Assembly (NCBI RefSeq): GCF_024385525.1
Contig: NZ_JANFLU010000011.1
Coordinates: 310,001-374,000 of the forward strand
Source: Arthrobacter sp. zg-Y238
GTDB taxonomy: Bacteria > Actinomycetota > Actinomycetes > Actinomycetales > Micrococcaceae
Direction of reading: 5' to 3'
Length of the DNA stretch: 64,000 nt
This document shows, piece by piece, positions 3,070 to 18,101 of this stretch. Positions within the stretch are counted from its first letter, which is position 1; each line of letters begins with the position of its first letter. Position numbers and translations under genes: made by a program. A model generated the notes under the pieces. The model worked only from the letters and a program-made list of their open reading frames with translations. It was not told the DNA's origin and ran no database searches.

Positions 3070-4557
3070 ATGACAAAGACATCCGCCCAGGTGGACACCG
3101 GGCTGTACATCAACGGCGAGTCCCGGAGGACGCAGGAAACCCTGGCGGTCGCCGATCCTGGCCGGCCCGGGCAGGTGGCGGGCCACGCAGCGGCTGCGTC
3201 GCCGGAGGACGTGGCGGACGCCGTCGGTGCCGCGAAGGCGGCCTTTCCCGCCTGGTCCGCACTGTCGGCGCAGGAACGGGCGGCACGGATGGCCGACGCA
3301 ATTGCGGGCATCGCCGACCTGCGGGATGAGGACGCGGCCATCCTGTCCCGTGAAAACGGCAAGATCGTTATGGAGAGCTGGGTGGACGCCCTCGTTTTCG
3401 AGCTCCGCTGGCAGCTTGCCCTGTCCCTGGCTGATCAGGTGGACCAGGACGGGATCCTCGAACCGGCGCCGGGCATCCCCGTGACCACCAGCGTGTCCTA
3501 CCAGCCGCTGGGCGTAGTCACGGTGATTGTGCCCTTCAACTGGCCGGTCGCAATCCTCGGCGCGTCCCTGCCCCACGCCCTGCTGGCCGGGAACACCGCC
3601 ATCGTCAAACCGCCGCCCACCGCGCCGCTGGCAACCACCCGGATTGTGCAGCGCGTTGCCGAGAAACTGCCGCCGGGAGTGCTGAACGTGGTCACCGGCC
3701 GGGACAGCGACATGTCCGGCCTGATCCGGAACGACGACGTGGCCAAGGTCTGCTTCACCGGCAGCGTCAACGGCGGCAAACGCATCATGGAAATGGCTTC
3801 CGGGTCCCTGACCCGGGTCACCCTCGAGCTCGGGGGAAACGATGCGGCCATCATCCTTGACGATGCCCTGCTGGACGACACCCGGCTGGACCGGCTCCAT
3901 GCCGCTGTCTTCGATACAACGGGCCAAATCTGCATGAACGCCAAGCGGATCTACGTTCACCGGTCCCGCATGGAGGAACTGGTGCAGGGACTGTCCGCCC
4001 GGCTGGAAAACGCTGTCATCGGCTACGGCCTCGACGAAGGTACAACCATGGGGCCGCTGCATTCCCCGGCGCAGAAAGCCTTCGTCGAAGACCTCATCCA
4101 GGAGGCAGAGGGTGCCGGCGCCGAGGTCCGCCGGTTCGGCACCCTGCCCGAGGGTCCGGACCTGCGGGACGGCAACTTCCTGCGCCCGGCACTGGTCCTT
4201 GATCCGCCGCCGGAACTGCGTGTGGTCACCGAGGAGCAGTTCGGGCCCGTGATCCCGATCATTCCGTTTGATTCCGAGGACGAAGCCATTGCCTGGGCGA
4301 ACGACAGTTGGGCCGGGCTCTGCGGCTCGGTCTGGACCGAGGACCCGGCCAGGGCCAACGCGGTCGGTTCGCGCCTGGCCTGCGGCTACGTGTGGGTCAA
4401 CGACCACGGAGCAACCCGATTGGACCTTCGTGCCCCGTTCGGCGGCATGAAGCAGTCCGGCATGGGCCGCGAACAGGGAATCCAGGGCGTCCGGGCTTTC
4501 CAAGACACCCGATCCATTGCCCACCTTGACGAGGCTGCAGCCGCCGCTGCGCACTGA
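3070..4557 (+). CDS. Aldehyde dehydrogenase (vanillin/benzaldehyde-type candidate)
   Basis: 495 aa NAD(P)-dependent aldehyde dehydrogenase. The start at 3070 (MTKTSAQVD) is chosen because the family's N-terminus begins there; the open frame upstream is a shadow of the opposite-strand gene. The general base is Glu253 in LELGGND and the nucleophile is Cys288 in TGQICMNAK, with normal family spacing; the C-terminal FGGMKQSGMGRE is also conserved. The LigM-type O-demethylase gene follows after 21 bp, so the two form an operon. That pairing suggests oxidation of a methoxylated aromatic aldehyde such as vanillin to the acid used by LigM. Family membership is certain; the vanillin assignment is inference from the neighbour. 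Confidence 0.88.
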   Translation: MTKTSAQVDTGLYINGESRRTQETLAVADPGRPGQVAGHAAAASPEDVADAVGAAKAAFPAWSALSAQERAARMADAIAGIADLRDEDAAILSRENGKIVMESWVDALVFELRWQLALSLADQVDQDGILEPAPGIPVTTSVSYQPLGVVTVIVPFNWPVAILGASLPHALLAGNTAIVKPPPTAPLATTRIVQRVAEKLPPGVLNVVTGRDSDMSGLIRNDDVAKVCFTGSVNGGKRIMEMASGSLTRVTLELGGNDAAIILDDALLDDTRLDRLHAAVFDTTGQICMNAKRIYVHRSRMEELVQGLSARLENAVIGYGLDEGTTMGPLHSPAQKAFVEDLIQEAEGAGAEVRRFGTLPEGPDLRDGNFLRPALVLDPPPELRVVTEEQFGPVIPIIPFDSEDEAIAWANDSWAGLCGSVWTEDPARANAVGSRLACGYVWVNDHGATRLDLRAPFGGMKQSGMGREQGIQGVRAFQDTRSIAHLDEAAAAAAH

Positions 4558-4578
4558 CGTTCGCGAAAGGAACCGAAG

Positions 4579-16308: not shown

Positions 16309-16361
16309 GCGCGTTACCCTAGCGACCGCGGAAACCGGTGTCCACGGTTCCGCTCCATGGC

Positions 16362-18101
16362 TTACGGCAGCATCCAATCAAGGACCGGGGTGGACTGCAG
16401 GTACACCAGAATGCACAGGGCGAGCAGCAGAAGCACGCTCCAGCCGACCACCTTGCGCAGCAGCACCGATTCCTGGCCGCTCATGTTCACCGCGGCAGCC
16501 CCGATGGCAAGGTTCTGCGGGCTGATGAGCTTGCCCATGACACCGCCGCCGGTGTTGGCGGCAACCATCAGCTGCGGATCCAGGCCTGCCTCAATTCCGG
16601 CTGTCTGCTGGAGCTTGGCAAAGAGCGCGTTCGCGGAGGTATCCGAACCGGTCACCGCCGTGCCGATCCAGCCGAGCACGGGGGAGAGGAAGGCAAAGAA
16701 GCCGCCGGTCGCCGCGAGCCACGTCCCGATCGATACCGTCTGCCCGGAAAAGTTCATCACGTATGCCAGGGCCAGCACCCCAAGGATGGTCAGCGCTGCG
16801 GAACGCATCCGCACCGCCGTCGTCCAGATTTCCCGCACCGCCGCTCCCATGCTCAACGGATACCGGCCGTTTTCATTGAAGCGGGAGTAGACCAGGGCAA
16901 CAATCAGGCCGGTGATCAGCAGCAAGGTACCGGGGCTGATCAGCCAGTCGAAGTTGTAGACGGTGGAGGACTGGGTCTGGCCGTTGCTGTCCAGCAGGGC
17001 TTCGTGCAGCACAGGCCAGGGGATCTCGATGTTGGTCTTCGCCAGTGCTTCGGGCACGTCGATGCCGAGCGTCCACAGGTTCACAAAACCGAAAATGACA
17101 ATGACCGCCACATAGGGGAACAACGCCATCCACGCGCGTCCCGGGGTCAGGCGGTCCGCAGCGGTGTCATCCGCCGCGGTCTGGACGTCCGACGCCGCGC
17201 CGGTGCCCGCCGGCGTCCAGCCGTCCGCCCGCGCTTCGGCCAGTTCCGCTTTCATCCGCTGGCCGGCCTCGCCGCCGTTGCGCGGATGCCAGAAGCGCAG
17301 GAACCCCACGGCGGCCAGCAACGCCACGAGGGAGGCCACAATGTCGGTGAGTTCGTAGGAGAAATAGTTTGAGCACAGGAACTGGAAAATGGAGAAAACG
17401 ACGCCGGTGAACAGGGCTATGGGCCAGCAGTCCCGCAGGCCTCGGCGTCCGTCCAGGATGAACAGCAGGATCAGCGGTACAAACAGGGCCAGCACCGGTG
17501 TCTGCCGGCCCACCACGGCACCGATTTCATCTCCCGTGTAGCCGGTGAGATTGGCAGCGGTGGTAATGGGGATGGCCAGGGCGCCGAACGCCACCGGGGC
17601 GGTGTTGGCTACCAGCACCGCGGTTGCCGCGCGGATCGGGGCGATGCCCAGGGCCAGCAGCATGGTCACCGTAATGGCGACCGGTGCGCCGAATCCGGCC
17701 AGCGCCTCCAGCAGGCCGCCGAAGCAGAAGGCCACCAGGATGGCCTGCACCCTCAGGTCCCCGCCGCCGATTGCATCAAAGACCCTTCGCAGGTCCTCGA
17801 ACCGGCCGCTGAGTACGGTCACCTGGTACAGCCATACGGCCATCACAATGATCCAGACCACCGGGAACAACCCGAAGGCGGCGCCCTGCGTGGATGAGAG
17901 CAGGGCAAGACCTACCGGCATGCCGAAACCGAAGATGCCGACGGCGAGGGCTACGAGGAGCGCCCAGGCCCCGGCCACGTAGGCCCGGGTTTTGGCGAAG
18001 GCCAGCAGGAAGAAAAAGGTGAGCAACGGCAGCAGCGCTACGAGCGCGGACAAGGCCACGCTGCCGAGGACGGGGTTGGTGCTGGGAGTGAAGCTGTCCA
18101 T
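16362..18101 (-). CDS. lldP: L-lactate permease (LctP/LldP family)
   Basis: 579-aa polytopic membrane protein of the lactate permease family. It shows many hydrophobic segments, the GGLLEALAGFGAPVAITVTM block and, near the C-terminus, TGSDTSANALFAKLQ and VAANTGGGVMGKLISPQ, all characteristic of LldP/GlcA. GGAGGT precedes the ATG by a short spacing. It would import L-lactate (possibly D-lactate or glycolate) with protons, feeding lutABC about 5 kb away. A 53-bp gap to the MTHFR-like gene on the same strand leaves co-transcription open. A hydrophilic loop at roughly residues 270-310 is Ala/Asp-rich and probably cytosolic. Confidence 0.93.
   Translation of the reverse strand: MDSFTPSTNPVLGSVALSALVALLPLLTFFFLLAFAKTRAYVAGAWALLVALAVGIFGFGMPVGLALLSSTQGAAFGLFPVVWIIVMAVWLYQVTVLSGRFEDLRRVFDAIGGGDLRVQAILVAFCFGGLLEALAGFGAPVAITVTMLLALGIAPIRAATAVLVANTAPVAFGALAIPITTAANLTGYTGDEIGAVVGRQTPVLALFVPLILLFILDGRRGLRDCWPIALFTGVVFSIFQFLCSNYFSYELTDIVASLVALLAAVGFLRFWHPRNGGEAGQRMKAELAEARADGWTPAGTGAASDVQTAADDTAADRLTPGRAWMALFPYVAVIVIFGFVNLWTLGIDVPEALAKTNIEIPWPVLHEALLDSNGQTQSSTVYNFDWLISPGTLLLITGLIVALVYSRFNENGRYPLSMGAAVREIWTTAVRMRSAALTILGVLALAYVMNFSGQTVSIGTWLAATGGFFAFLSPVLGWIGTAVTGSDTSANALFAKLQQTAGIEAGLDPQLMVAANTGGGVMGKLISPQNLAIGAAAVNMSGQESVLLRKVVGWSVLLLLALCILVYLQSTPVLDWMLP

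Follow-up and report, generated by a model that had tools for sequence, protein, structure and literature searches.

We analysed a window of 64,000 nt from Arthrobacter sp. zg-Y238, in which every gene named by the original prediction between positions 3070 and 18101 is open at full length (Table 1). The predicted inventory was mostly correct: the ALDH, two LigM genes, the binding lipoprotein, the MTHFR-like gene, lutABC and a lactate permease were all found. Genes for a VOC-like protein, an MFS transporter, a small minus-strand protein and an esterase lie in the same span and were missing from its list. Among the compared loci, the cluster of the VOC-like protein is present in L005-L008 only and that of the MFS transporter only in L005, and the 120-aa minus-strand protein has relatives in L006, L007 and L008.

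Table 1. Genes of the island and one lactate gene beyond it (positions in the window)
Feature	Position	Strand	Evidence and remarks
ALDH	3070..4557	+	495 aa; Pfam Aldedh 415 bits
LigM1, THF-dependent vanillate/3-O-methylgallate O-demethylase homologue	4579..5988	+	469 aa; NCBIfam NF047885 827 bits
VOC/glyoxalase-like protein (putative)	6113..6502	+	129 aa; name from reading of sequence
MFS transporter	6597..7976	+	459 aa, TTG start; Pfam MFS_1 113.6 bits
Small protein	7982..8344	-	120 aa; gene call
LutA-like lactate oxidation CCG protein	8487..9311	+	CCG domain, 2 stretches (Pfam)
LutB/LldF L-lactate oxidation iron-sulfur protein	9308..10807	+	TIGR00273 463 bits
LutC-like LUD-domain protein	10804..11424	+	206 aa; LUD_dom 79 bits
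Alpha/beta hydrolase (esterase)	11437..12546	-	Pfam BD-FAE 102 bits, Abhydrolase_3 87 bits
LigM2, THF-dependent vanillate/3-O-methylgallate O-demethylase homologue	12750..14156	-	468 aa, GTG start; NF047885 886 bits
NMT1/SsuA-type ABC substrate-binding lipoprotein, orphan	14462..15445	+	Pfam NMT1 132 bits
Divergent MTHFR, LigM-coupled type	15448..16308	-	ATG start, other starts possible; 282 bits to 7xg9
LctP family lactate permease	16362..18101	-	TIGR00795 408 bits
NAD-dependent L-lactate dehydrogenase, outside the predicted span	21029..21991	+	TIGR01771 331 bits, cut-off 304

The ALDH gene and LigM1 share a strand with a gap of 21 bp, and the lutA/lutB and lutB/lutC pairs each overlap by 4 bases. 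Both lutABC and the permease gene (lldP) had been placed between the LigM genes; lutABC does lie between LigM1 and LigM2, but the permease gene, lctP, lies outside, beyond the MTHFR-like gene. The latter had been described as divergent; in fact it shares a strand with LigM2, runs convergently with the lipoprotein gene and has lctP 53 bp upstream on the same strand. Reading of the called genes gave no regulator gene in the island, and comparison of the regions upstream of ALDH, LigM2/lipoprotein, lctP and lutA for a shared operator gave only weak 12-base similarities and no common palindrome.

LigM1 and LigM2 both exceed the cut-off of NF047885, the NCBIfam model of LigM (580 bits), and score 606 and 615 bits with the DesA model (cut-off 800), 41 and 44 bits with the DmdA model (cut-off 410) and 45 and 43 bits with the soxA model (cut-off 1164). 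A sarcosine/dimethylglycine, DmdA or GcvT identity was rejected, because every such NCBIfam model stayed under its cut-off. The two proteins are 64% (LigM1) and 68% (LigM2) identical to the solved LigM (5x1i), and both keep Y31, Q57, H60, R122, Q165, E215, Y247 and W256, eight residues chosen from 30 aligned positions and numbered relative to the solved LigM with an assumed offset of 3. From LigM structure papers we take these residues to cover the catalytic tyrosine and the binding of the aromatic substrate and THF, with R122 and Y31 presumably on the carboxylate side; these two are missing in all four of the more distant paralogues compared. LigM1 and LigM2 are the same at the eight residues and differ at 6 of the 22 positions next to them. 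In a tree of 66 rows (from a set of 124) plus GcvT, whose DesA side consists of DesA-like rows and which holds no validated DesA, DmdA or BrdA, both proteins and the solved LigM share one 47-row group (support 86/98, short of full), separate from the DesA-like rows and GcvT. LigM1 sits on a long branch, and some proteins of other lineages that pass the LigM cut-off (L086, L088, L090 and L092) fall outside the group. Curated models, similarity, tree and the eight residues together support the predicted assignment of both proteins to the LigM type rather than to sarcosine, DMG or DmdA enzymes. LigM over cut-off occurs in 43 of 149 genomes of the family of the source genome and in 11 of 396 from a phylum-wide sample (Actinomycetota); it is frequent in the family, though rare across the phylum, and the suggestion that an actinobacterial version would be exceptional is not supported.

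The best PDB match of the MTHFR-like protein was 7xg9 (alignment of 275 residues; the runner-up scored 27 bits), which we take to be the MTHFR of SYK-6, the match itself giving the molecule name only. The protein matched no Pfam family, PF02219 included, and the canonical MTHFR models of NCBIfam gave about 20 bits against cut-offs near 300, although some of its orthologs in other genomes weakly pass PF02219 (about 24-41 bits). The source genome contains no match to PF02219 (canonical MTHFR), and the MTHFR-like gene is the sole copy of its kind there. Within the 149 family genomes, an ortholog is present in 41 of the 43 that are LigM-positive vs 5 of the 106 that are LigM-negative (Fisher p about 1e-28, uncorrected for relatedness). 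In 40 of these 41 the ortholog and a LigM start no more than about 11 kb apart, and in the remaining one it is on a separate contig. The LigM genomes without the ortholog are G424, with a distant MTHFR near its LigM, and G509, with none. Moreover, clustering placed this MTHFR type in 73 of 78 named loci, which were fetched by LigM similarity alone and many of which are related to each other, and in 71 of the 73 a LigM-family gene lies no more than 1.3 kb away; the linkage across loci is beyond chance. An Agrobacterium plasmid likewise carries a LigM over cut-off and an MTHFR 50% identical to that of the window, with purU adjacent. The partner MTHFR of LigM in SYK-6 oxidises 5-methyl-THF (PMC12585457), and similar gene sets in many bacteria are described in PMC12585457 and in excerpts of PMC13001107. 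The gene at 15448-16308 fits this recently published LigM-"reverse MTHFR" module, in which 5-methyl-THF is oxidised; kinship to 7xg9 is itself silent on direction. The predicted entry of the methyl group into the folate pool through this enzyme is plausible by its kinship to 7xg9, its tracking of LigM and the published SYK-6 work (PMC12585457).

Searches of the source genome for ring-cleavage and folate-C1 genes, which the original prediction had proposed, yielded both. A pca operon for protocatechuate 3,4-cleavage is present, in which PcaH, PcaG and PcaC each pass their models; a pcaB-like protein reaches 316 vs a cut-off of 356, and scores higher with the nitrosuccinate lyase model (393, also under its cut-off), and PobA passes a subfamily model and misses the equivalog (419 vs 539). 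PurU is encoded outside the island, some 13 kb beyond the end of the window, FTHFS elsewhere in the genome, and a GcvT protein is also present. The pca operon, PurU and FTHFS make vanillate use by the organism plausible, and a second vanillate route through Rieske VanAB may exist in the genome. The predicted syringate/3-O-methylgallate branch found no support. The only LigB-domain protein of the genome scores as a 3-carboxyethylcatechol 2,3-dioxygenase and lies in an mhp-like cluster, and a gallate/syringate branch via LigAB/DesB was rejected because this protein is not gallate-type. No PF02574 protein and only weak matches to PF01717 (MetE-domain) were detected in the genome; as no canonical MTHFR was detected either, oxidation is the only visible way out for methyl-THF.

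We propose the ALDH as a putative aromatic aldehyde (vanillin-type) dehydrogenase: none of the 25 listed of its 41 NCBIfam matches is an equivalog over cut-off, and the 60 listed of 254 PDB matches are varied ALDHs at no more than 260 bits. The lipoprotein, proposed as a putative aromatic-acid binding protein, scores 107 bits with the SsuA family model (cut-off 163.5), and PDB comparison indicated no substrate. Its description as an orphan holds, as no ABC permease or ATPase was read among the genes called in 1-26 kb, part of which were profile-scanned. In Nesterenkonia halophila (L063) a 55% identical lipoprotein adjoins apparent ABC transporter genes and LigM.

The genes with their family assignments, the coupling of LigM and MTHFR in many genomes, and the presence of the pca operon, PurU and FTHFS are observed; which substrates are used, which way the MTHFR runs, what the ALDH and the lipoprotein do and how any of the genes are regulated is inferred. 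We hold it to be highly probable that the island is a chromosomal, vanillate-type catabolic island with a LigM-coupled reverse MTHFR and with ordinary lactate genes inside it. A vanillate-type aromatic acid would enter the cell, possibly aided by the lipoprotein, or would be made from the aldehyde by the ALDH, and LigM1 and/or LigM2 would then transfer the methyl of vanillate to tetrahydrofolate, leaving protocatechuate, which would be cleaved by the pca operon and pass into the beta-ketoadipate pathway. The reverse MTHFR would convert 5-methyl-THF to 5,10-methylene-THF, and the one-carbon unit would serve biosynthesis or leave as formate via PurU/FTHFS.

The two LigM proteins might instead act mainly on other methoxylated compounds, such as isovanillate, veratrate or alkaloid and herbicide fragments, the island being a general methoxyl scavenger. 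Excerpts of PMC5547118 and PMC9404685 describe THF-dependent relatives acting on berberine (in an Arthrobacter strain) and on dicamba, respectively, and the long branch of LigM1, its differences from LigM2 beside the chosen residues and an ALDH whose substrate is unassigned by family count in the same direction. However, R122 and Y31 are kept in both proteins and changed in the distant paralogues, both score far over the LigM cut-off, and a protocatechuate operon exists in the genome, so we consider this reading rather unlikely. An ordinary biosynthetic MTHFR, supplying 5-methyl-THF for methionine and lying beside LigM by accident, would account for the sole copy in a genome without a PF02219 match, and two of the five genomes that carry the ortholog without LigM (G429 and G487) lack a strong canonical MTHFR. 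Yet the ortholog tracks LigM across the family, 15 of the 41 genomes with both have a strong canonical MTHFR as well, both MTHFR types are missing from three sampled congeners, and the PF02574 and PF01717 results point to no evident consumer of methyl-THF in methionine synthesis; we regard an accidental neighbour of this kind as improbable.

The lactate genes had been thought to be tied functionally to demethylation, and the two could form one unit if, for example, lutABC passed on the electrons of methyl-THF oxidation or a product of the aromatic pathway were carried by lctP. The short same-strand distance from lctP to the MTHFR gene would agree with this, as would lutABC lying beside LigM2 in 10 of 10 loci (L005-L014) from both sub-groups of one Arthrobacter lineage. 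These ten are, however, the only ones of the 78 loci in which lutABC adjoins LigM, and lutABC is missing from the compared stretch in 63 of the 73 loci that have this MTHFR. In the koreensis sub-group lctP is next to lutA and not to the MTHFR gene, and in L010-L014 a putative GntR-type regulator (by reading) comes next. By their NCBIfam scores, LutB and LctP are ordinary lactate proteins (cut-offs 445 and 341). LutA gave an LdhH-type match of 184 bits, under the cut-off of 800, and LutC, with no NCBIfam match at 1e-30, is assigned by its LUD domain only. A single functional unit is therefore very improbable and the proposed tie is not supported; most likely lutABC and lctP serve to import and oxidise lactate and adjoin the demethylation genes as a matter of lineage.

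Under the preferred reading, a vanillate-type island with a reverse MTHFR, the LigM/reverse-MTHFR strategy already known in bacteria gains another example: the module is extended to a chromosomal Arthrobacter island and its coupling is quantified in the family (41/43 vs 5/106). The organism suits the question of the in-cell direction of MTHFR, since neither a second MTHFR nor a clear MetE/MetH was detected. Where 'methylenetetrahydrofolate reductase' is annotated next to a GcvT-like gene, demethylation and not methionine synthesis may be indicated. It is a tentative and somewhat doubtful possibility that the Arthrobacter group, with no canonical MTHFR or MetE/MetH, runs its sole MTHFR only oxidatively and imports methionine or makes it via an unrecognised short MetE-like enzyme. 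If true, the cell would present a natural methyl-folate trap that a single dedicated enzyme holds open, with methoxyl groups of lignin acids entering folate only for oxidation.

No characterised LigM from Arthrobacter was found in the literature searched; the closest is a gene of Arthrobacter sp. GBD-1 annotated as vanillate/3-O-methylgallate demethylase and nearly inactive on berberine, as given in an excerpt of PMC5547118. The BrdA/SesA demethylenases of Arthrobacter sp. GBD-1, Rhodococcus and Sinomonas resemble LigM1 and LigM2 as THF-dependent, GcvT-like actinobacterial enzymes acting on aromatics, but form a separate demethylenase clade in that excerpt and lie outside our tree. Metagenomic THF-dependent O-demethylases, as excerpted from PMC9296663, include a LigM-type enzyme in a Micromonosporaceae MAG and DesA-like ones in Solirubrobacterales and Rubrobacter MAGs; these actinobacterial MAG enzymes are mostly DesA-like and of hot-spring origin, and are likened to the Arthrobacter LigMs by description. 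The LigM-MTHFR-PurU clusters of Microbacterium, Brevibacterium, Kocuria and Sinomonas share the LigM and MTHFR neighbours. An ALDH of the same cluster lies near LigM in 23 of the 78 named loci; neighbourhood genes were called with a codon-usage caller, which placed the ALDH start of the window too early, so the window was left out of this count. In contrast, a PadR-type regulator (52/78 loci) and a nearby PurU (45/78), common in the other Micrococcales clusters, are absent from the Arthrobacter island. The LigM/MetF (S6MTHFR)/LigH module of Sphingobium lignivorans SYK-6 likewise couples a LigM-type demethylase to an MTHFR of this divergent kind, and its downstream C1 genes are present in the Arthrobacter genome. 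The Arthrobacter island differs in having two LigM copies with lactate genes between them, and FTHFS and PurU elsewhere; protocatechuate cleavage is 3,4- in the Arthrobacter genome and 4,5- in SYK-6, and a GcvT protein is present in the Arthrobacter genome whereas SYK-6 is without the glycine cleavage system (PMC12585457).

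The original prediction of two LigM-type O-demethylases in the island was borne out by curated model scores, by identity to a solved structure and by phylogeny. LigM1 and LigM2 scored 827 and 886 against the NCBIfam LigM model (cut-off 580), and 606 and 615 against the DesA model (cut-off 800). The closest solved relatives of LigM1 were the LigM structures 5tl4 and 5x1i (709 bits); LigM1 was 64% and LigM2 68% identical to 5x1i, and the two were 67% identical to each other. In a tree of 67 rows that included GcvT and paralogues, LigM1, LigM2 and solved LigM fell into one 47-row group (support 86/98), with GcvT and the paralogues outside. 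Membership among sarcosine enzymes or DmdA had been named as the adverse outcome; identity with DmdA, GcvT or sarcosine oxidase was rejected on model scores far below the cut-offs (NCBIfam). Five scanned paralogues outside the LigM group scored higher for DesA than for LigM, both below cut-off, and four proteins of other lineages (from loci L086, L088, L090 and L092) passed the LigM cut-off more narrowly (595–722 bits) and also lay outside the 47-row group.

LigM2 is the copy common to the koreensis group in the tree, 99% identical to that of Arthrobacter sp. zg-Y769 and 97% to that of A. zhaoxinii, which probably puts the window's genome among these Arthrobacter strains, and LigM1 belongs to a faster-evolving branch of closest relatives whose next neighbour is a Zafaria gene (support 89/97). 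Both proteins keep Y31, Q57, H60, R122, Q165, E215, Y247 and W256, a set of our own choice, with an assumed numbering offset, of residues with active-site roles in the LigM structures; R122 and Y31 are missing in all four distant paralogues compared. These eight residues are identical in LigM1 and LigM2 and 6 of the 22 other positions compared differ, so the two may or may not differ in specificity. In A. zhaoxinii (L007:17625-20966), PurU and another MTHFR type (30% identical) come after LigM1 in place of the window's ALDH.

LigM above cut-off was found in 43 of 149 genomes of the window's family (presumably Micrococcaceae), where the best copy in each scored no less than 788 bits, compared with 11 of 396 genomes in an even draw across the phylum, and in none of 14 control genomes; LigM is thus rare across the whole phylum but frequent in this family. 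The MTHFR-like protein matched no Pfam family and reached ∼20 bits against canonical MTHFR models (NCBIfam), and scored 282 bits against the solved chain 7xg9 (next chain 27 bits). Its ortholog (at least 279 bits) occurred in 46 of the 149 family genomes, comprising 41 of 43 LigM-positive versus 5 of 106 LigM-negative genomes (Fisher p ∼1e-28, uncorrected for relatedness). In 40 of these 41 genomes the MTHFR start lay within ∼11 kb of a LigM start, and in one on another contig. The LigM-positive exceptions were G424, with only a distant MTHFR (125 bits), and G509, with none; among the five carriers without LigM, G440, G464 and G523 had a strong canonical MTHFR and G429 and G487 had not. The 78 named loci, many of which are related to one another, are the top-ranking ones retained from 536 relatives; clustering placed this MTHFR in 73 of them and tblastn found an MTHFR of the LigM-coupled kind in 76, two being of a more distant type. 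By clustering, 45 of the 78 also have PurU, 23 have the ALDH and 52 have a PadR-type regulator (one member scanned). On an Agrobacterium plasmid LigM, MTHFR and purU are adjacent, and the MTHFR is 50% identical to the window's. The counterpart in Sphingobium lignivorans SYK-6 is reported to oxidise 5-methyl-THF to methylene-THF (PMC12585457), and similar gene sets are reported in many bacteria (PMC12585457; PMC13001107). A Rhodococcus opacus plasmid, pRop44186_a (L127:1-9134), groups LigM, a DesA/LigM-like protein and MTHFR with genes for a FolC-type ligase (286 bits, cut-off 163), a CHA aldolase and a PIG-L protein and with pabB and fdhD. The arrangement looks as though genes for folate supply move together with those for THF-dependent demethylation.

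FTHFS and GcvT are present in the window's genome, and PurU lies ∼13 kb past the window end. Canonical MTHFR (PF02219) has no match in this genome; with a threshold of 150 bits, none of the eight sampled genomes of the genus, this one included, had a match, and three of the eight also lack the LigM-coupled MTHFR. Across the family, the canonical enzyme reaches this threshold in 82 of 149 genomes, and in 15 of the 41 with LigM and partner MTHFR. Because PF02574 (homocysteine methyltransferase) is unmatched in the genome and PF01717 matches only two short proteins weakly (scanned whole, they score 51 and 26 bits; one reaches 88 on a methionine synthase model, cut-off 406), a full MetE or MetH is not visible by these two models. 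Either short protein could possibly be an unrecognised methionine synthase. SYK-6 requires methionine when no methoxyl substrate is supplied (PMC6888825); in the window's genome not even this use of methyl-THF is visible.

A ring-cleavage pathway, whose absence would have weighed against the original prediction, is present as a pca operon with PcaH and PcaG, a PF00775 pair (see table). The sole LigB-domain protein in the genome is a 3-carboxyethylcatechol 2,3-dioxygenase (422, cut-off 291). The genome also holds, on C1, an mhp-like cluster for meta-cleavage that includes a separate NMT1-type ABC transporter (L123:1358-10346; dioxygenase and binding protein scanned, remainder read from sequence). 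At L061:2950-6482, L049:2976-6518 and similar loci, an extradiol enzyme of type I (VOC) that resembles catechol-2,3-dioxygenase, below its cut-off, neighbours 4-oxalomesaconate tautomerase, CHA aldolase, ALDH and LigM; by clustering the gene is in 8 of the 78 named loci, and for this step the SYK-6 pathway uses LigB-type dioxygenases.

Features of the window and of its genome, with model scores
Feature	Location	Basis
L-lactate dehydrogenase	21029-21991	curated-model match
Short protein, no named function	L118:910-2115 (own genome)	weak MetE catalytic-domain match
Short protein, no named function	L119:1423-2544 (own genome)	weak MetE catalytic-domain match
PcaH (PF00775 pair)	C4:237854-238914 (own genome)	350 bits, cut-off 296
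PcaG (PF00775 pair)	C4:237854-238914 (own genome)	182, cut-off 126
PobA	pca operon	subfamily model 530, cut-off 351; equivalog 419, below cut-off 539
PcaB-like protein	pca operon	316, below cut-off 356; best is nitrosuccinate lyase model, 393, also below cut-off
PcaC	pca operon	172, cut-off 156
PcaI-type subunit	pca operon	363, cut-off 128.5
PcaD, PcaF, PcaJ	pca operon	putative, by reading of sequence

The genes named in the original prediction are present and were mostly well read. The lipoprotein is an NMT1/SsuA-type binding protein (Pfam, NCBIfam). A 55% identical relative in Nesterenkonia halophila (L063) adjoins a second binding protein and LigM, with two apparent permeases and an ATPase by reading, and a 34% identical one lies with apparent ABC transporter genes in the genome's own mhp-like aromatic cluster; aromatic-acid uptake is a fair guess for its role. 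ALDH and LigM1, on one strand with a 21-bp gap, look like an operon, and a purine-rich stretch precedes most of the inspected gene starts. LigM2 and the lipoprotein gene point away from each other, and the lipoprotein and MTHFR genes converge. The MTHFR gene lies 53 bp downstream of lctP, with which it shares a strand, and in the zhaoxinii sub-group these two are possibly co-transcribed. Because the G+C content is even throughout the window (63–67%) and no tRNA gene lies in it, the island bears no marks of recent acquisition in this 3.55-Mb genome. Elsewhere in the window, a pair of closely similar cold-shock-like genes, each 67 codons long (26116-26319 and 29576-29779, by reading), lie ∼3.3 kb apart, and a putative urease operon was read at 38488-43091.

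LutB and LctP exceeded curated cut-offs (NCBIfam), and the proposed tie of lactate genes to demethylation was not supported: lutABC adjoins LigM in 10 of the 78 named loci (L005–L014), all of the zhaoxinii/koreensis lineage, and is absent from the examined stretch in 63 of the 73 loci with LigM-coupled MTHFR. This is one-lineage synteny and does not speak for a joint function.

Our results agree that the island works like, and belongs to, the LigM–MetF module of SYK-6. The window's genome differs from SYK-6 in its two LigM copies, scattered downstream C1 genes, 3,4-cleavage and lactate neighbours, and also in having GcvT, whereas SYK-6 is without a glycine cleavage system (PMC12585457). The LigM–MTHFR module is already known, and the Arthrobacter island is a further case of it.
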